This document shows, one piece after another, positions 1,729-61,140 of a stretch of DNA of 64,000 nucleotides (position 1 is the stretch's first letter; every line of letters starts with the position of its first letter). Both the position numbers and the translations under genes were made by a program. A model generated the notes under the pieces. It saw only the letters and a list, made by a program, of their open reading frames with translations. It had not been told where the DNA came from and did no database searches. The stretch is from the NCBI GenBank assembly GCA_028289285.1, contig JANQRF010000003.1, positions 62,001 through 126,000 of the forward strand, read 5' to 3'. Source of the DNA: Alphaproteobacteria bacterium. GTDB taxonomy: Bacteria > Pseudomonadota > Alphaproteobacteria > Micavibrionales > Micavibrionaceae.

Positions 1729-2520
1729 TTAAGCAGCTTTCAGCGCATCTTTAAGAGCCTGCACCTGCGTGGAAATTACTGCGCTGTTTGCGCCCGCGCC
1801 GATTTGTTCCACCAGCGCAGAGCCGACAACAATCCCGTCCGCAATTTCGCCCATGGCGGCGGCATCGTCCGGGGTTTTAATACCAAACCCAACGACAACA
1901 GGCAGATCGGTTTGGGTTTTAATCTCTGCAATATGTTTGCCGACCTCATCAACATTGGCTGATTTCGTTCCTGTCACCCCGGTAATAGAGACGTAATAGA
2001 GGAACCCGCCTGCCCCGTTCAAAATGTTAGGAAGGCGCTGCATATCCGTCGTCGGGGTTAAAAGCCGGATCAGGTGCAAACCGTTTTGCTGTGCAAGTGG
2101 CGCAATTTCATCTGCCTCTTCCGGCGGTAAATCGACAAGGATAAGCCCATCGACACCGCACTCCGCGCAGGCTTTTGTAAATGCTTCAGGGCCGAACGCT
2201 AAAACCGGGTTCATATATCCCATCAGGACGATCGGCGTGGTATTATTCTTTGTCCGGAATTGCTGCACCATCTCCAGCGTTTTGTGCATATCTGCGCCAC
2301 TATCCAAAGCCCGCAAGCCCGCCGCCTGAATCGCCGGCCCGTCCGCCATCGGGTCGGTAAACGGCATGCCGATTTCAATGATATCCGCGCCGCTGCCTGG
2401 CAAGGCATCTAAAATTTCCTGCGCCGTGCCGGCATCCGTATCACCGGCCATGATAAAGGTCACAAGCGCTTTTCGGCCTTCGGCTTTCAGGGTTTCAAAT
2501 ATTGTGTTGATTCGGTTCAT
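1729..2520 (-). CDS. trpA: tryptophan synthase alpha subunit
   Basis: Cleaves indole-3-glycerol phosphate to indole and glyceraldehyde-3-phosphate; the indole is channelled to TrpB in the alpha2-beta2 complex. At 263 residues it has normal length. The catalytic acids are visible as Glu49 in IIEIGMPF and Asp60 in DPMADGPAIQ, matching enteric numbering. VSITGVTGTK and VVVGFGIKTPDDA are the phosphate-binding loops of the TIM barrel. Its ATG overlaps the stop of the HNH-like gene by 4 bases (ATGA), which suggests translational coupling. TrpB is present but separated from trpA by two genes foreign to the pathway. Confidence 0.97.
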   Translation of the reverse strand: MNRINTIFETLKAEGRKALVTFIMAGDTDAGTAQEILDALPGSGADIIEIGMPFTDPMADGPAIQAAGLRALDSGADMHKTLEMVQQFRTKNNTTPIVLMGYMNPVLAFGPEAFTKACAECGVDGLILVDLPPEEADEIAPLAQQNGLHLIRLLTPTTDMQRLPNILNGAGGFLYYVSITGVTGTKSANVDEVGKHIAEIKTQTDLPVVVGFGIKTPDDAAAMGEIADGIVVGSALVEQIGAGANSAVISTQVQALKDALKAA

Positions 2521-3188
2521 ATAATTTCACAACCTAGTAATTCAGCTATCCGGGAATAGTTAAGCGAATCATTTTCTTCACGAAATCCGCCTGGAATATA
2601 AGGCACTTTACTTGTTTTATCTCTAAACTCAATCGTTAAAACAGTTTCTGTATTGCGGCCATATATTTGCCAATGGATATACGTGCTTCTTAATTGATTA
2701 AGGTATTTTGGTATAGCAAGCAGGTTGTCTTTGTCATTAGTGCCTCCCCAAGCTATAGGTCTATCGTGCTCTAACGATATATCCAGGGCAAAGCTTTCAG
2801 ATTGGTTTAATTTTCCAAAAACCGGAACATTACCATAGCTTTGCATATAGGAAATTTCATCCCAGGTAAGTCCCATTTTTTTAAAGCTTTGAGCCCAGAT
2901 TTGCGCTAGCTCACGAAAAATACCTTTTTTTGCGCTCTTAAATTCTTTACGCAGTTTTCTGACTGTTTCTCTATCACTAGGTTCATAGGGGAGTACCCCC
3001 AGTGTTAATTCATTAGAATTTTGAACTCGTTCTGTAACGGCTCTAAAATTAGAAATGTTACGGGTTAGTCTACGGATATCTTTGTGTCTTTGAGACCCGT
3101 TAGGCTTTCCCCGCGCGGCGGCAAGCTCTTGAAGTCTTGCCTCCATTCTATCTATAGAGCCTTCCAGTGTTTGTTCAACAATACTCAT
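2517..3188 (-). CDS. HNH-like endonuclease domain protein inside the trp operon
   Basis: 223-residue protein of uncertain function. Residues 140-168 read EHDRPIAWGGTNDKDNL followed by an Asn and Arg at 164-167, matching the HNH pattern (D/E)H..P..GG.ND..NL......N..R but without the zinc-binding cysteine pairs many HNH proteins have. The first 100 residues are charged and probably helical. No secretion signal is seen. The gene is visibly more AT-rich than trpA and trpB. It begins 12 bases after the GyrI-like gene and overlaps trpA by 4 bases, so it must be co-translated with the trp genes. The family assignment rests on the motif only; a diverged non-nuclease is possible. Confidence 0.7.
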   Translation of the reverse strand: MSIVEQTLEGSIDRMEARLQELAAARGKPNGSQRHKDIRRLTRNISNFRAVTERVQNSNELTLGVLPYEPSDRETVRKLRKEFKSAKKGIFRELAQIWAQSFKKMGLTWDEISYMQSYGNVPVFGKLNQSESFALDISLEHDRPIAWGGTNDKDNLLAIPKYLNQLRSTYIHWQIYGRNTETVLTIEFRDKTSKVPYIPGGFREENDSLNYSRIAELLGCEII

Positions 3189-4950: not shown

Positions 4951-5580
4951 TTATAGCTGCGCGGCTTTGGTTAAAAACGTCCTGATTTTCTCAGGGTCTT
5001 TCACGCCGCGGCTGCTTTCCACGCCGCTTGAGATATCCAGCGCAGATGGCGAGAGTACATCCAATGCTGCAGTAATATTCTCTGCATGAAGCCCACCGGC
5101 CAGAAACCAGGGTTTGGACAGCGGGCTCTCTTGTAGATATTGCTGCAGAATCGACCAGTCGAACGTCTCGCCCGACCCGCCGCTTTTGGCATCAAACATC
5201 AGCCAGTCGGCAGCGGCCTCATAGCCCGGCACTTTTTCCAAATCGCTTTCGCCTGATACAGGCAGGGCTTTAATCACAGGCATGCCGAAAGCGGTTTTGA
5301 TTTCTGATACACGCCCCGGGCTTTCGTGTCCGTGCAGCTGAATCATGTCCAGTTGAACCGTGTTTAAAACATCTTCAAGCGCAGCATTGTCAGGATCAAC
5401 AAATAGTCCAACTGTCCGCACGCCTGTCGGCACATAGCGCGCCAGATAGCCCGCGATTTCCGTCTCAACAAAGCGCGGGGAAGGCGCGTGAAAGACAAGC
5501 CCGGCAAAACGCGCGCCGCCGTCTATCGCGGCAGTCATCGCTTCGGGCGTCGTGATCCCGCATATTTTAACATCCGTCAT
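4951..5580 (-). CDS. trpF: phosphoribosylanthranilate isomerase
   Basis: Amadori rearrangement of phosphoribosylanthranilate, third step of tryptophan synthesis. At 209 residues it is a standard single-domain TIM barrel. Cys7 in VKICGIT is the expected catalytic cysteine and Asp130 in [12 protein letters not shown] the catalytic aspartate; [10 protein letters not shown] near the C-terminus is the phosphate-binding end. The ATG overlaps the pyrF stop by 4 bases, tying pyrimidine and tryptophan genes into one transcript, an order common in alphaproteobacteria (pyrF-trpF-trpB-trpA). Confidence 0.96.
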
Positions 5581-6266
5581 AACGTGTCCAGAATATCCTG
5601 CACGGCTTGTGCCGGGTTATCTGCTTTTGTGATCGGGCGGCCGATGACAAGATGGGTGGCGCCTGCGGTGAGAGCATCCTTTGGAGTCATGACGCGCTTT
5701 TGATCTCCAGTCTCTGATCCGGCCGGGCGGATACCGGGCACCATCAGGGCGAAGTCAGGCCCGCACGCCGCGCGAATGTCTGCGATTTCATGGGCAGAAC
5801 ATACAACGCCATCTAGTCCAGCTTCCTGCGTGAGTTTAGCCAGCTGCACCACGCGGTCTTTGAGGCCGTCCTGATATCCAATGCGCGTGGCTTCTGCTTC
5901 ATCAATAGAAGTTAAAAGCGTGACGGCGATGAGTTTTGTTCCCGGTGCGCAAGATTCTTTTGCGGCCTTCATCATCTCAAGACCGCCGGAAGCATGGACA
6001 TTTAAATAAGAAACACCAAGCGTGCTCGCCGCGCGCACGGCGCCTGCGACCGTGTTTGGAATGTCATGATATTTGAGATCAAGAAAGATAGATGTGCCTG
6101 GCACATCCTCTATCATCTCTTTTACGCCTTGCGGGCCAAACGCGTTGAAAAACTCCATGCCGAGTTTAACGCCGCACCCCGCAGGCACAATCTGGCTAAT
6201 CAGATTTTTGGCATGCGCAATATCCGGCGTATCAATGGCGCAATAAATTTTGGGCAGGTTTGTCAT
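5577..6266 (-). CDS. pyrF: orotidine-5'-phosphate decarboxylase
   Basis: Last step of de novo UMP synthesis. 229 residues. The catalytic DxKxxD motif is seen in IFLDLKYHDIPNT (Asp63, Lys65, Asp68), and VPGIRP near residue 175 is the phosphate-gripping loop. The ATG lies inside the 3' end of the lapA-like gene (35-base overlap) with AAGAGA just upstream as ribosome binding site. It overlaps trpF by 4 bases. Confidence 0.96.
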   Translation of the reverse strand: MTNLPKIYCAIDTPDIAHAKNLISQIVPAGCGVKLGMEFFNAFGPQGVKEMIEDVPGTSIFLDLKYHDIPNTVAGAVRAASTLGVSYLNVHASGGLEMMKAAKESCAPGTKLIAVTLLTSIDEAEATRIGYQDGLKDRVVQLAKLTQEAGLDGVVCSAHEIADIRAACGPDFALMVPGIRPAGSETGDQKRVMTPKDALTAGATHLVIGRPITKADNPAQAVQDILDTL

Positions 6267-6576
6267 TCTCTTCTTTATCCTGTTTTAAATTTTCATTTGC
6301 AGCCAGACTGTCATTTAACTCTTTTTCAAGTTTTTTGACTTTCTTTTTGAGGCTGCGTTTTTCCGCGCGCACGCTGCCTAAAGATACCCAGGTAGTCAAC
6401 ATCCCGATCAGCAGGCCGACTGCAAACAGGCCAAGCCCAAGCGCATAAAGCGGCAACTCAATCGCCGGGTGATAGGGGCTGTAGGTAAAGCTTATCTGAG
6501 CATCATTCGCCAGCGCAAATAACACTGCCGCAACAATCAGCGGCACAATCATAATCCAGCGGTAAAGTGTAAACAT
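6232..6576 (-). CDS. lapA: LapA-domain (DUF1049) inner membrane protein
   Basis: 114-residue protein with two N-terminal membrane segments (about residues 7-24 and 42-66) followed by a charged coiled-coil tail rich in Lys and Glu. This is the layout of LapA/YciS-type proteins, which in enterics work with LapB in control of LpxC and LPS synthesis. In alphaproteobacteria this gene regularly sits between ihfB and pyrF, as here. The function is inferred from family and position. The C-terminal 11 codons overlap the start of pyrF. Confidence 0.85.
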   Translation of the reverse strand: MFTLYRWIMIVPLIVAAVLFALANDAQISFTYSPYHPAIELPLYALGLGLFAVGLLIGMLTTWVSLGSVRAEKRSLKKKVKKLEKELNDSLAANENLKQDKEENDKPAQNLLRH

Positions 6577-6601
6577 GTCTTTTGTGCCTTACGGCGCGGC
6601 C

Positions 6602-6934
6602 TTAAAAAGAATCGCGATTATAAAAATCATCTTCCTTGGCGCTTGAATCATCGCTTTCCCCGTTAAGCCGTTCGCGCAGGGCTTTGCCTGTTTTGAAAAA
6701 CGGCAACCGCTTGGCTTCGACGTGAACGGTTTCGCCTGTGCGCGGGTTACGGCCTGTGCGTGCTTCACGGTGTTTCACTGAAAAGGCGCCAAAGCCGCGC
6801 AGCTCCACCCGGTCGCCGCGGACAAGGGCGGCGGTAATATCTTCAAAAATAGTGTCGACGATTTTTTCAATATCACGCAGGAACAGATGCGGATTGCGCT
6901 CTGCCAGCTTTTGAATGAGTTCGGACTTGGTCAC
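6602..6934 (-). CDS. ihfB: integration host factor beta subunit
   Basis: DNA-bending nucleoid protein, forms a heterodimer with IhfA. 110 residues. The core [29 protein letters not shown] and TGRNPRTGE (DNA-inserting arm with its proline) is typical; a 15-residue acidic tail extends beyond the usual ~94. Translation starts at GTG with TAGGAG 7 bases upstream (6942-6947), which supports this start. It follows rpsA after a terminator, so it probably has its own promoter. Confidence 0.95.
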
Positions 6935-7045
6935 GCCTAAGCTCCTAAAACAATTAAAAACGCTTATATATCAAGAGCATGACTCAGATTCTCCGGCCCG
7001 TCAAGGCAATTCCCTGATTATAAAGGGTTTTTTGTGAATCCTATA

Positions 7046-9704: not shown

Positions 9705-9733
9705 TTGACATAATAATTATTTTTATTTATATA
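9705..9733 (+). promoter_or_regulatory. sigma-70 promoter, leaderless start of the 9740 gene
   Basis: TTGACA at 9705-9710 and TATATA at 9728-9733 are separated by exactly 17 bases. The expected start of transcription, 6-7 bases past the -10, coincides with the ATG at 9740, and no Shine-Dalgarno sequence is present, so the mRNA is predicted to be leaderless. The core TTGACATAATAAT recurs before two other orphan genes in this window. Confidence 0.75.
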
Positions 9734-9739
9734 TAGATC

Positions 9740-10321
9740 ATGCCAGTCAAAGAAAAGAGTGCCCTGTTAACGGCCATTGATCTTCCACTCACCAGTCCTC
9801 ATAGTTCTGAGAGTTTCTTGAGGGATATTTTTGGAGATAAGGTTGGTTTATCCCAACCTCATCCTGTGCTTAAAGGGGCCGACCCGGGTCATTATTCCCT
9901 GTCATGGGGATTTGATCTCGAGATCAAATTTCCATCTGTGTATTTTCAGTTTTACAGGCATGATGGGGAAGGACAAGTGCCTTTTGGTAATAATAATGTC
10001 ATTATCAAGGGTGAAGATGCTGAAAAGATTTTTAGGCCTCTTGGAAAAAGTTTCCGAGAATATCTTATTGAAAATCCTCCAGACACATGGCAAGAGGGAG
10101 ATAATTTACCGGCAGTCTTCCGTAGATTTTCTGAAGGTCATAGAAATACGGAATTTGATAATGAAAAGATACAGGCTTCTATCGATAAACTAGGTTTCCA
10201 ACTCGGTGAATGGTTTGATACAGAGAGGGATCGCGATGTTGCTGTATCTCTCTACACATTGATCGCGAGCGAGTTTTCTACGATCCTTCCTTATGAAGAT
10301 CGTTTGGACTGGAAGTTTTAA
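9740..10321 (+). CDS. hypothetical orphan protein
   Basis: 193-residue soluble protein with no recognised domain, signal peptide or membrane segment. It is rich in aromatic residues (HYSLSWGFDLEIKFPSVYF around residues 50-70) and acidic overall. Base composition is distinctly AT-rich compared with the flanking cmk and rpoN genes. It stands alone behind a near-consensus promoter and is convergent with rpoN; the two TAA stops share one TTAA at 10318-10321. These are the marks of an acquired accessory gene. No function is proposed. Confidence 0.75.
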   Translation: MPVKEKSALLTAIDLPLTSPHSSESFLRDIFGDKVGLSQPHPVLKGADPGHYSLSWGFDLEIKFPSVYFQFYRHDGEGQVPFGNNNVIIKGEDAEKIFRPLGKSFREYLIENPPDTWQEGDNLPAVFRRFSEGHRNTEFDNEKIQASIDKLGFQLGEWFDTERDRDVAVSLYTLIASEFSTILPYEDRLDWKF

Positions 10322-22757: not shown

Positions 22758-22769
22758 AGCAAGAATATA

Positions 22770-22797
22770 TTGACATAATTTAAAATTTCTTTATGAC
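22770..22797 (+). promoter_or_regulatory. candidate promoter of the glutamine-synthetase-like gene
   Basis: TTGACA at 22770-22775 is followed by TAATTT and, 16 bases on, by TATGAC (22792-22797). The -35 region TTGACATAAT matches those of the 9740 and 61089 orphan genes; the -10 is weaker. Confidence 0.5.
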
Positions 22798-22825
22798 AAT
22801 AGCATAAAAGAAGTTTTAGGCTGCT

Positions 22826-24382
22826 ATGCTTACAAGTCATTATCAAGAGGTTGTGTCGGAAGGGGGAATAGATCCCCGCTTATTTTATGATCCGCAAAGA
22901 GCCCCTGAATTCCCTTTGCAGGCAGATATACGCGAAGAAATTCTCGCTTGCCTGGATCGTTTCGGCACACACGGCATAGAAGTCAAAACAGGTCTGGAAC
23001 TGGAATTTCATATTTCTCAAAATCCAAAATCCTATTCGGATTTTTGTCAAAAAGCGAAACGGAAACTTGCTTTTCATTTTTTTACGGGAGCAAATGGCGG
23101 ACCTGTGAGAAATTTGTCTCAACGACTGGACTTTGAACATTTTACGCCGCGGGAAATTTTACTGGCAGAAATATATGAAAAATTTAAAGATATTCTGGAA
23201 CCTCGCTTTGGAGGTATGCATCCTAAAAGTGAGTTTGATAAGTCCGGATATTACGATGGATATAATCAGGAAGTGAGACTAAAACCTTCCAGTGTTACCG
23301 ATCTTCTTGATAATCGTGAGCGTGTTTTAACATTTCTTGCCGAACGGCTGTCAGCATACGGCTATACGCCTGATGAATTTTATTTTGAAAGTAATCATCT
23401 CAATATTAGCTTTTGGGATTCAGACGGAAATAATATTTGTTCTATTACTCCTGAAATGTCTTACAGCTCTGTCGCTGAAAAATTAAAATCCATTACAGGC
23501 GGCCTTTTAAAGGGAATGCACGATGGTCTTATTGCAACACATTCTCCGGGCTATCTTCAGCTTTTGGAAAATGAATTTAAATCCTGGGGCACATTACAAA
23601 AAATTAGTGTTGGCCTTGGCAATGGACATTATATTCAGCATCGAAATAAAAAAGACTCAAAATATGCGCGTCTTGAAATAAGGAAACAAAGGAATTACGG
23701 CGCAGATTTTGATCTGGAAAATTTTTACATGTCAACATTATGTACTCTTGCCGGAGCTCTATATGGTTTGGAGAAAAGATTTACAATAGGTTTGAAGTTT
23801 GATGCGCTTCCAATTGTTAAATGTTACTCAACAGCTTTAAGAATATTAATAAGATCCAGTTTTTTTACGCCTTTATCAGAGGATAGGGCTCAAATTAGAG
23901 TGAATAAGCATGCATTGCGACCGCACAAGCTGCTTAAACTTGGGAAAAGAATGGGTTTTGTAGATGACTCAGTCATGTCTTTGCAGGATATTTCTAAAAA
24001 ACAATTTCTAACGATGGAGAAAGAAATTTATGGCCATGTAGAAGATATTGTTCTTTTAAAAGAACAAGACGGCTTATGGTACATTTACCCAGAAGCAGAT
24101 TCTCCATTGGCAGATATGATTCTTGGTGATCCTGTATCCTCAAGATTTGCTCTTTCCAGCCAAATAAAATATGATGTTTCAGGCGGGTTTGGACAATATT
24201 TTCAGAGCATATTAAAAGTCTACCGCTTTTCAACTTCTAAAGTTTTCAATAGCGTTTTTCAAAATGGAAATCTAGCGCGGGAGTTTCCTTTACTGGTTAT
24301 GACAGGTGATACCTTGCAAGACGGTGTATCTTATGATTTGCGTCGGGATTCTCCTGAAATATATGAACCCGGCTGCCAGTAA
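22826..24382 (+). CDS. divergent glutamine-synthetase-fold protein (carboxylate-amine ligase superfamily)
   Basis: 518-residue orphan. The order of motifs follows glutamine synthetase: TGLELEFHI (Glu58, Glu60; the GxExE metal strand), YDGYNQEVRLKP (Glu149), FESNHLNISFW (His191, the place of the NGSGMHVH loop), GGLLKGMHDGL (about 225-235, like GGLLKHA) and YARLEIRKQRN followed by a long helix ending AGALYGLEKR (Arg282, Glu284, Arg286), matching the R.E.R element and AGL.GI helix. Overall it is too different to be a normal GlnA; the C-terminal ~200 residues are unlike GlnA. It may join another amine and acid. AT-rich and inserted between ftsK and lolA. Confidence 0.72.
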   Translation: MLTSHYQEVVSEGGIDPRLFYDPQRAPEFPLQADIREEILACLDRFGTHGIEVKTGLELEFHISQNPKSYSDFCQKAKRKLAFHFFTGANGGPVRNLSQRLDFEHFTPREILLAEIYEKFKDILEPRFGGMHPKSEFDKSGYYDGYNQEVRLKPSSVTDLLDNRERVLTFLAERLSAYGYTPDEFYFESNHLNISFWDSDGNNICSITPEMSYSSVAEKLKSITGGLLKGMHDGLIATHSPGYLQLLENEFKSWGTLQKISVGLGNGHYIQHRNKKDSKYARLEIRKQRNYGADFDLENFYMSTLCTLAGALYGLEKRFTIGLKFDALPIVKCYSTALRILIRSSFFTPLSEDRAQIRVNKHALRPHKLLKLGKRMGFVDDSVMSLQDISKKQFLTMEKEIYGHVEDIVLLKEQDGLWYIYPEADSPLADMILGDPVSSRFALSSQIKYDVSGGFGQYFQSILKVYRFSTSKVFNSVFQNGNLAREFPLLVMTGDTLQDGVSYDLRRDSPEIYEPGCQ

Positions 24383-24415
24383 ATTTTTTATAACTATTTT
24401 AGTGCGGCGTTAAAA

Positions 24416-24769
24416 TCAGCTTAGTCTTTGTGCCCGTAATCCCATTTTTTTGCATCGGGACGGCGCAAGAATAGGGATGTTTGGGAAGCGGGGGTCAGCA
24501 ATTGAAGCCCTTGCTGCAATCTGTCTTGCTGCGTCTTTAAATGGCCATGAGATATCTGCAGGGAAATCTCTTTTAATCAGGCAACCATTTTCAAGCATTA
24601 CAGGTTTGTGCGTGGATTGATTTTGTGATTCATGACCTGCTACTTCAAGTTTCCAGCGCGTTTCTTTTCCGCTCATACTGACAACAGCAACAAGTCCCTG
24701 ATTCCCATCCTCAAAGTGACAGGTCAATCCCTCTCTTACGATAACGGTTTCTGTAGTTGCTTGTGGCAT
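24416..24769 (-). CDS. hypothetical small protein
   Basis: 117 residues with no recognised domain, signal or membrane segment. The first half looks beta-rich (VIVREGLTCHFEDGNQG, LVAVVSMSG), and the C-terminus is basic. AAGGA lies just upstream of the ATG. It faces the glutamine-synthetase-like gene tail to tail with 33 bases between, so the two may have come in together. Function unknown. Confidence 0.6.
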   Translation of the reverse strand: MPQATTETVIVREGLTCHFEDGNQGLVAVVSMSGKETRWKLEVAGHESQNQSTHKPVMLENGCLIKRDFPADISWPFKDAARQIAARASIADPRFPNIPILAPSRCKKMGLRAQRLS

Positions 24770-24877
24770 CTCATTCCTTACGTTTAGAAATGCACTTAAG
24801 CATATAATTTTTCATAAGTAAAACAGGTTTGAACCATATTGCGGCCCGTTCAATCGCCCTGTAGGATTTGCCTCACC

Positions 24878-25984
24878 ATGTCCAAGCACCACCCCGTTCT
24901 TCTGGCATTTGCCTCTGTTACTTTGTCTGTTGTTTTTTGTCTCATCATTTTAGAGGTGATACTGCATTTCCTGCCGGTAAATTCCTATATCCCTTTACAG
25001 CCCGTCACTGCTGAAGATCCGGTTGTACGCGGTCCGCCAAATATCAGGCAAACTTATTCGGCAGGCTGGTATTTTGATGCGCGGCATAGCAGTAAAACCA
25101 ACGCGCAAGGCTATGTCAGCGGTATTGATTTTGAAAATAATCCAGAGAGGCCGCTTGTTGCTGTTGTTGGCGATTCATATATTGAAGCGCGGATGATTCC
25201 GTTTGAGCAAACGCTGCAGCAAAGATTGAATGTTGCGCTGGGGGATGGGACGGATGTGTACGGCGTTGGCGTGGGTGGCGCGCCGATGAGCCAGTATCCG
25301 ATTTTCGCGCAAATGATGTGGGAAAAATATGATCCTGACTTTCTCATTGTCTCTATTGTTGAAAATGATTTTGATGAAAGCCTGCCGGAATACAAAAACA
25401 TGCCGCGCTTTCATTATTTTGTCGAAGATGAGAAGGGCCAGTTACGTCCGACCCTGATCGGCGAACATCGGCCCGGCTTTTTCAAGGAGCTGATGTCTAA
25501 ATCCTCGCTGGTGCGCTATCTCTATTTCAATCTTAACCTGTCCTACATTGTGAACAGAGTTCAGTTTGCTGCGCGCAGTCCGGACAATGCTGCGCCATCT
25601 GAAGAAGCCGCAGCAAAAGATGAGACAAGGGTGACGAAATCCAAACAGGCGGTTGATGCGTTTTTAAAACTTTTGCCAGACTATGCGGGCCTGCCGAAAA
25701 ACAAAATTCTCATCACGGTTGATGCGGGGCGGGCCTATATTTATGCCGGGGAAAAACTCCCCGAAGATGATTATTTTTACCAGGTGAGAAATCATTTACT
25801 CTCTAATGCGCGCCGACAGGGCTATCATACGCTTGATCTGCAGGAGGTGTTCGAAAAGGAATATGCAGCCCACGGCAAATCCTTTGAATATACTGAAGAC
25901 CGTCACTGGAACCCTTATGCGCATGGCGTGGTGGCCGATGCGATTTTGGACACAGGCCTGCTCAACCGCTATAAAAACCGTTGA
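24878..25984 (+). CDS. membrane-anchored SGNH hydrolase (AlgX/AlgJ-like)
   Basis: 368 residues from the ATG at 24878 with TAGGA about 10 bases upstream; an earlier TTG start is less likely. The N-terminal hydrophobic segment (about 8-31) anchors the protein, and the rest should be periplasmic. VAVVGDSYIEA holds the nucleophile Ser100, and EDRHWNPYAHG near the C-terminus gives Asp341 and His343, the D.HW form seen in AlgX/AlgJ-type O-acetyl-handling hydrolases. The substrate, perhaps a polysaccharide acetyl group, is inferred. It lies just upstream of lolA. Confidence 0.82.
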   Translation: MSKHHPVLLAFASVTLSVVFCLIILEVILHFLPVNSYIPLQPVTAEDPVVRGPPNIRQTYSAGWYFDARHSSKTNAQGYVSGIDFENNPERPLVAVVGDSYIEARMIPFEQTLQQRLNVALGDGTDVYGVGVGGAPMSQYPIFAQMMWEKYDPDFLIVSIVENDFDESLPEYKNMPRFHYFVEDEKGQLRPTLIGEHRPGFFKELMSKSSLVRYLYFNLNLSYIVNRVQFAARSPDNAAPSEEAAAKDETRVTKSKQAVDAFLKLLPDYAGLPKNKILITVDAGRAYIYAGEKLPEDDYFYQVRNHLLSNARRQGYHTLDLQEVFEKEYAAHGKSFEYTEDRHWNPYAHGVVADAILDTGLLNRYKNR

Positions 25985-38446: not shown

Positions 38447-38953
38447 ATGGAGCAACTGTTTATTCAATTTACAGGGGCGTTAATAGCAGGCTTAATAGGC
38501 GTGCTAACTTCTCTATATATACATCGCGTAGAAAAGATAAAACTTGCCCTGAGATCATCTGCTGTTTTTAGGGAAGAGATTGGCGCAGCAGCCTATAAGA
38601 TTAGTCTTATTGTACATGGTCAGGGAGATTTTAAAAATTTTGCAAGGCTCAAATTTTTAAAAACCCGTCTTGATTTTTATAAAAATACAGTGGGTTTTCT
38701 AGGAGATTTAGACTATGCGGATGCTTCTGATGTTGCGTTTTTTTATCATGTTTTAGAAGAAATTATGCATATTGTGGATATAGAAGATAGTTTTCTCTCT
38801 GATTTGAATAATGAAGGCGTAATAGAAAAACTTAAACTCGCTTTGCATGTTGGAAATAGAGTAAGCAATTCTTTAGAGAGATTTGAAGTTAAATCTTCCT
38901 TACCATTTTGGGATGATATCCAATACAAATTAGGTTTTTTAAAAATTCCCTGA
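38447..38953 (+). CDS. hypothetical single-pass membrane protein
   Basis: 168 residues with one N-terminal membrane segment (about 5-25, FTGALIAGLIGVLTSLYI) and a cytoplasmic, helix-rich, charged domain. AT-rich and unlike the surrounding genes in composition; no family recognised. It follows a 21-codon frame with a strong ribosome binding site and precedes an XRE regulator on the other strand. Probably an accessory gene. Confidence 0.62.
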   Translation: MEQLFIQFTGALIAGLIGVLTSLYIHRVEKIKLALRSSAVFREEIGAAAYKISLIVHGQGDFKNFARLKFLKTRLDFYKNTVGFLGDLDYADASDVAFFYHVLEEIMHIVDIEDSFLSDLNNEGVIEKLKLALHVGNRVSNSLERFEVKSSLPFWDDIQYKLGFLKIP

Positions 38954-60552: not shown

Positions 60553-61089
60553 TTAGGCTGGTTGCCTTGTTTGTTTATTTCCGATGGATGAATGGACTGC
60601 CAGTTCTTTTTCAAGAGCGTTAAAAAACTCTACAACATCCTTGTGAATTGTATCGAGGGCTTCTCTTAATTCCGGAATCTTGATGTCGCTTTTTTGTTCG
60701 TCTGTTAGGTCAAAAGATTCAATCATTTGATCAAATTCTGTTAGAGCATCTACAAAGCCTGTAATGACTTGATCTTGATAGCCGATATGTTGTGCCATCG
60801 TTCTTTTCCAGGTCGTACAGTAAAGAGAAAAAGTCTCAATCACAGTTTCAACATGGCCGGTTGTTTTTAAAACAGCAGCGCGGATATTTAGAGAGTCTTC
60901 CGGACATCCTTGCTCCGGCAATGCAACTGTATAAGGTGTATTCGGCCTGCGGTCTGTTATGACAGGTATCCCGTATTGAGCCGTATTTTGTAAGATCCGT
61001 TCAGTAAGCTGCGCATAGTTATTGGCCTGAATTTCATTTTGTCTCAGTAACGCTTGTAAAGCTAAACTGTTTGCAACCATGGTCGCCAT
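60553..61089 (-). CDS. hypothetical orphan protein
   Basis: 178 residues from the ATG at 61089, with GGAGAG 8 bases upstream; an upstream extension exists but is not favoured. Two helical parts: residues 1-45 (MATMVANSLALQALLRQNEI) and 100-170, with a middle segment containing two cysteines (PEQGCPEDSLNIRAAVL). No signal peptide or domain recognised. AT-rich relative to chrR and cytochrome c, and behind a promoter of the TTGACATAATAAT type. Function unknown. Confidence 0.72.
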   Translation of the reverse strand: MATMVANSLALQALLRQNEIQANNYAQLTERILQNTAQYGIPVITDRRPNTPYTVALPEQGCPEDSLNIRAAVLKTTGHVETVIETFSLYCTTWKRTMAQHIGYQDQVITGFVDALTEFDQMIESFDLTDEQKSDIKIPELREALDTIHKDVVEFFNALEKELAVHSSIGNKQTRQPA

Positions 61090-61111
61090 GTCTTCTCTCC
61101 GAAAAAGAAGA

Positions 61112-61140
61112 CATATAGCCAATATTCATTATTATGTCAA
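61112..61140 (-). promoter_or_regulatory. sigma-70 promoter of the 61089 orphan gene
   Basis: Minus strand: TTGACA (61135-61140) and TATATG (61112-61117), 17 bases apart. The -35 context TTGACATAATAAT is the same as at 9705 and close to that at 22770. Confidence 0.7.

Follow-up and report, generated by a model that had tools for sequence, protein, structure and literature searches.

Glutamine, glutathione precursors, polyamine adducts and Pup conjugates are all products of ligases with the glutamine synthetase (GS) fold, a fold whose new branches have tended to bring new amide-forming reactions. In GlnA, an N-terminal beta-grasp domain gives D50 to the neighbouring active site; GCS2 and PafA have no beta-grasp domain. 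The order of strands and helices in the superfamily core has been described (PMC2588565), and in carboxylate-amine ligases it carries GhExE, acidic residues on strands 2/3, [HQ]x[NH] on strand 4 and ExR on strand 6 (Iyer et al. 2008, PMC2588565). Two arginines, one on strand 5 and the other in the loop before it, are conserved in all superfamily members except GatB/GatE (PMC2588565).

Our window, the whole 64,000-nucleotide stretch of an alphaproteobacterial contig that was analysed, contains a GS-like gene at 22826-24382 (+). Its product (P0001, 518 aa) has a catalytic domain at about residues 28–320, and the rest is a C-terminal region. The frame comprises 518 stop-free codons, and same-base shuffles reach at most 136 codons in 500 trials; chance is ruled out as its source. 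What is known here is the GS fold, and what is new is a very rare, divergent variant of it. Compared with the GS catalytic domain PF00120 (which includes the gamma-glutamylpolyamine/ethanolamide synthetases), P0001 and its relatives have the same fold, the same motif order and the A-G-x-x-x-G-[LI] helix, and share equivalents of E129, E131, E220, H269 and E357 as well as of R355 and R359. However, identity is about 15–20% in structural alignments, and the family has no beta-grasp domain or flap and none of the glutamate-pocket residues, while it has an additional C-terminal region and an Asp near E212; the window copy alone is also without equivalents of R339 and R344. With the GCS2/YbdK and PafA/Dop branch, the family shares GhExE, the strand-2/3 acidic residues, [HQ]x[NH], ExR and the lack of a beta-grasp domain, yet the Pfam comparison gave no match to this branch, and searches by sequence and by structure both lead to GS proper. 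In contrast to PafA/Dop, there is no Pup-like gene nearby, and the strand-5/loop arginines are missing from the window copy. The two best viral fold matches carry the name of phage amidoligases (BFVD A0A6J5L9S8 and A0A6J5L6S9), but they are weak (E 0.007 and 0.009, TM-score <0.3), and no phage or viral contig with a close relative was found.

Relationship to glutamine synthetase

An earlier, sequence-only reading had placed P0001 in the GS fold and superfamily, and sequence profiles, profile-profile alignment and structure comparison agree in supporting this. The Pfam profile Gln-synt_C (PF00120) matched P0001 below threshold (E 0.0027), and the GGputSyn profile matched it at E 0.0065. Gln-synt_C also matched the P0002, L043 and L045 proteins at E 0.004–0.008, and the L044 protein scored above its curated cut-off (33.0 bits vs. 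24, E 4.5e-8). With P0001 alone as the query, PDB sequences gave no meaningful match. Using hhalign, the seven-member domain alignment, which is shallow (P0001 and six relatives), aligned to 19 GS-type proteins with a probability of 98.8% (E 5.8e-17 over 232 columns). Subgroups and P0001 alone reached 94–98% against GS (P0001 94.9%), and 60 column shuffles run as a control stayed at or below 0.6%. Family profiles retrieved ordinary GS-type proteins of other families and orders over the stretch from the His loop to R.E.R, and weakly retrieved solved GS chains (best E 0.005). When the seven-member profile was run against the whole class, matches outside the order were restricted to this same stretch, and those inspected were GS-type. 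The family shares ancestry with GS and is a member of the GS superfamily.

The GS landmarks, which had been described as occurring in the right order in a 518-residue protein, do so at the residues given in the next section, and the same motifs follow in the same order in all six relatives. Because of this recurrence, and of the profile-profile score against shuffles, the landmarks can be regarded as more than chance. GS also has a PROSITE-style signature, K-P...H...S. This is absent from the family and also from 13 of the 19 GS-type proteins used, and it was therefore dropped as evidence.

Comparing a predicted structure with GS had been proposed as a check, and a GS-family fold was recovered. 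In the AlphaFold model of full-length P0001, the core has a pLDDT of 70–89, and residues ~319–518 are not confident. A model of the domain (mean pLDDT 62.6, pTM 0.66; moderate confidence) has strands at residues 51–63, 148–156, 185–198, 260–265 and 282–287, with strand 2 not confidently modelled, and helices at 157–177 (after strand 3) and 300–320 (after strand 6), an order that agrees with the superfamily core of PMC2588565. For both models, all 50 PDB matches listed by VIA were GS-family, the top match being 5dm3 (Z 14.3, rmsd 3.3 over 204 residues), and the PDB matches listed by Foldseek were GS-family as well. No PafA, GCS2 or YbdK entry was among the best 50 PDB matches listed. As modelled, P0001 has the common fold of the GS superfamily.

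Conserved and missing parts of the active site

With GS numbering from PMC6529630 and PMC5403932, and with residue equivalences that rest on two alignments, the motifs of P0001 can be set against the GS active site. GLELEF (22991-23008 (+), residues 56–61) contains the GhExE of core strand 1, G56-L-E58-L-E60 on strand 51–63, in which E58 and E60 correspond to the metal-site residues E129 and E131. The segment GYYDGYNQEVRL (23246-23281 (+), residues 141–152) holds E149, the equivalent of E220, and D144, near E212 and one column off it; D144 and E149 are invariant in all seven family sequences. Core strand 4 carries [HQD]x[NH], which in P0001 is H191-L-N193 at the start of HLNISFW (23396-23416 (+), residues 191–197; H191 = GS H269, N193 = GS H271), in L044 Q-L-H and in L042 H-L-S. 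The GGLLK helix lies at residues 225–229, and GNGHYIQ (23618-23638 (+), residues 265–271) has N266 and Q271 at the sites of R339 and R344. RLEIR (23669-23683 (+), residues 282–286), equivalent to R355, E357 and R359, includes the Ex[RK] of core strand 6, E284-I-R286 on strand 282–287, and LAGALYGL follows at residues 308–315. By position in the GS sequence, we take R282 to be R355 and N266 to be R339.

Metal-site residues vary somewhat within the family, since the second of the two GhExE acidic sites, both of which are kept in six of the seven members, is Asn in L046 (Asn for E60), and since L044 has Gln for H191. The L044 gene (3268-5715), in which the metal His is Gln, has the +2 His; the L046 gene with Asn for the second GxExE Glu is at 4995-6314. 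In P0001, the core appears to be retained with metal ligands E58, E60, E149, H191 and E284 and with the invariant D144, and these five ligands would be expected to cluster in one site. The strand-5/loop arginines (R...[LI]R) are present in all six relatives and replaced in P0001 alone, by N266 and Q271, so the relatives have the two arginines found across the superfamily and the window copy does not. These arginines, equivalent to R339 and R344, are those of the phosphate site. Since N266 and Q271 stand in their place, catalysis by the window copy itself is uncertain, and this copy may well be weakened or inactive.

The joint alignment contains no equivalents of the GS glutamate-binding residues N264, G265 and R321 or of the E327 flap. 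The beta-grasp domain is absent; ahead of the first core helix (33–48) there are only about 30 residues, too few for such a domain, and there is no Gln-synt_N match. Read from the alignments, the family conserves the metal and phosphate-transfer part of the GS active site, and the glutamate/ammonia part is gone.

Distribution and genomic setting

Among 142 genomes of the order, the search turned up a single clear relative, P0002 (L002, 630 aa; 29% pairwise identity to P0001, E 4e-17), and profiles added proteins of 815 aa, 841 aa and ~440 aa, the last cut by a contig end. A DNA pattern for EPxFG...G[WY][WY]D matched all known relatives and no viral contig. In 84,980 species genomes it found six stretches, all encoding the family, which is a lower bound because the pattern misses members that share the window copy's longer loop. 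Five of these stretches are alphaproteobacterial MAG contigs (four MAGs, one with two) and the sixth is a Ca. Woesebacteria chromosome (L045, CP066686.1, 2094-4316, 740 aa; 30% identity to L042 in an alignment). The gene is present in one of 57 genomes of the order to which this Woesebacteria genome belongs. This relative of alphaproteobacterial proteins in a Patescibacteria chromosome looks like a transfer between phyla. P0001 had been read as an orphan with the GS fold and possibly a ligase; the fold and superfamily part stands on profile, profile-profile and structural grounds, but the orphan part was wrong, as six relatives were found. The family is very small, very rare and previously unlabelled, with members in a few alphaproteobacteria and in a single bacterium of a candidate phylum. 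Scans of genome contigs, viral contigs, phages and plasmids with the single P0001 sequence gave chance-level matches or a weak GS match only. A phage or plasmid origin was considered and is not supported, since searches with the closer subfamily found no viral or plasmid carrier either. Defence-system models gave no match.

The gene was thought to be AT-rich and to interrupt the ftsK-lolA neighbourhood with a small gene tail to tail, and each of these observations held up. It lies in an AT-rich insertion of ~2.1 kb (22758-24838) between ftsK and an SGNH-hydrolase gene; in the sister species (G001) the order is ftsK, 44 bp, SGNH hydrolase, lolA and recR with no insert, and in two further genera ftsK adjoins lolA. 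The G+C content of the gene is 38.3%, compared with a mean of 49.9% (sd 4.6%) over 56 window ORFs, of which it is the second lowest. The small gene is an open frame of 117 aa (24416-24769 (-)) inside the insertion; it has no convincing relative. Across the order, its matches were weak and short, the best having E 0.002 and 31% identity over 54 residues, and several ran through stop codons. Both the window and the sister species have the SGNH-hydrolase/AlgX-like gene (24839-25984 (+) in the window) between ftsK and lolA; it was not found there in the two other genera of the family. Direct or inverted repeats of transposon type were not found at the insertion, where only short ones occur, and promoter and terminator matches were no better than in shuffles. 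Four further window ORFs are AT-rich (33–41% G+C) and without a Pfam match (38447-38953 (+), 2517-3188 (-), 60553-61122 (-) and 9740-10321 (+)); these could be other imports or frames that arose by chance.

A survey of the relatives for conserved neighbours, which the sequence-only reading had put forward, found none shared: family genes elsewhere are at unrelated positions, and no neighbour is common to the loci. In L042, for example, the genes on either side of the family gene look like lptB and rpoN on sequence inspection. At the G019 locus (L011), the GS-like gene is flanked by small proteins of no known family at 6523-7020 (-) (165 aa) and 9720-10166 (-) (148 aa), which are 32% identical to each other over 65 aa (E 4.6e-9); only 3 bases separate the end of the latter from the GS-like gene. 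Small tail-to-tail genes were considered as a shared partner and rejected, the window's having no convincing similarity to the others. G+C is far below the surroundings in the window and in L043, and not so in the other relatives. The distribution is consistent with a lone gene having been acquired repeatedly by horizontal transfer, given the unrelated positions, the absence of the insertion from the sister species and the AT-richness here and in L043.

Proposed activity and its alternatives

We favour, as reasonably probable, a horizontally spread, stand-alone GS-fold amidoligase, that is, a candidate carboxylate-amine ligase. Most likely it is a metal-dependent, ATP-using enzyme that joins an acid and an amine. 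Two Mg2+/Mn2+ ions and ATP would bind in the barrel, the substrate carboxylate would be phosphorylated, and the amine would attack the acyl phosphate to form an amide. Substrate recognition of its own is suggested by the extra C-terminal region together with the stand-alone gene, and the C-terminal region may perform it. Horizontal transfer would spread the family one gene at a time. In the window copy, the two replaced arginines may result in altered or weakened phosphate handling. Glutamate and ammonia are unlikely substrates, as the family lacks the beta-grasp domain, the flap and the residues that bind glutamate in GS; with these pocket features missing and the metal residues kept, an unusual acid and amine can reasonably be inferred. 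Neighbours, operon and phenotype gave no substrate clue.

Alternatively, the window protein could be a pseudoenzyme or an import in decay, which has lost its phosphate-site arginines and binds a ligand at most or has no function. N266 and Q271 stand where all six relatives keep arginines, and the AT-rich insertion that holds the copy has no counterpart in the sister species. However, the 518-codon frame is full-length, all metal ligands are intact along with R282, E284 and R286, which is not expected under decay, and the nearby R273 might take over; we regard this explanation as unlikely, if the most serious of the alternatives. A PafA-like ligase that modifies proteins, linking a small protein or peptide, through a carboxylate, to an amine on a target, appears quite improbable. 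GhExE and the strand-4 [HQ]x[NH] are as in PafA/GCS2 (PMC2588565), there is an extra C-terminal region, and both here and at two other loci the family gene has a small gene tail to tail with it, but the three small neighbours show no convincing similarity among themselves, only the two flanking the G019 copy being clearly related. None of the small neighbours has a Pup-like end, the neighbours of the remaining relatives differ, and the Pup ligase Pfam profile matched no member (E up to 5-10). Still more doubtful is a divergent glutamine or gamma-glutamylamine synthetase of the PuuA/GlnA3/GlnA4 type acting on glutamate: the nearest sequence profiles are GS and GGputSyn and reverse searches yield GS-type proteins, yet the family has no beta-grasp domain, flap or equivalents of R321 or N264-G265, and an ordinary GlnA is present elsewhere in the same genome.

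For the carboxylate-amine ligase that we favour, a more specific possibility, which we advance tentatively, is a new GS-fold amidoligase branch, with members in a few alphaproteobacteria and one in Patescibacteria, that acts on a carboxylate/amine pair not known from any GS-fold enzyme and possibly on a macromolecule recognised by the C-terminal region. A family that appears to have kept the metal/ATP machinery and lost the glutamate pocket, that has gained a C-terminal region and that seems to have crossed phyla as a single gene would be a good candidate for an undescribed reaction.
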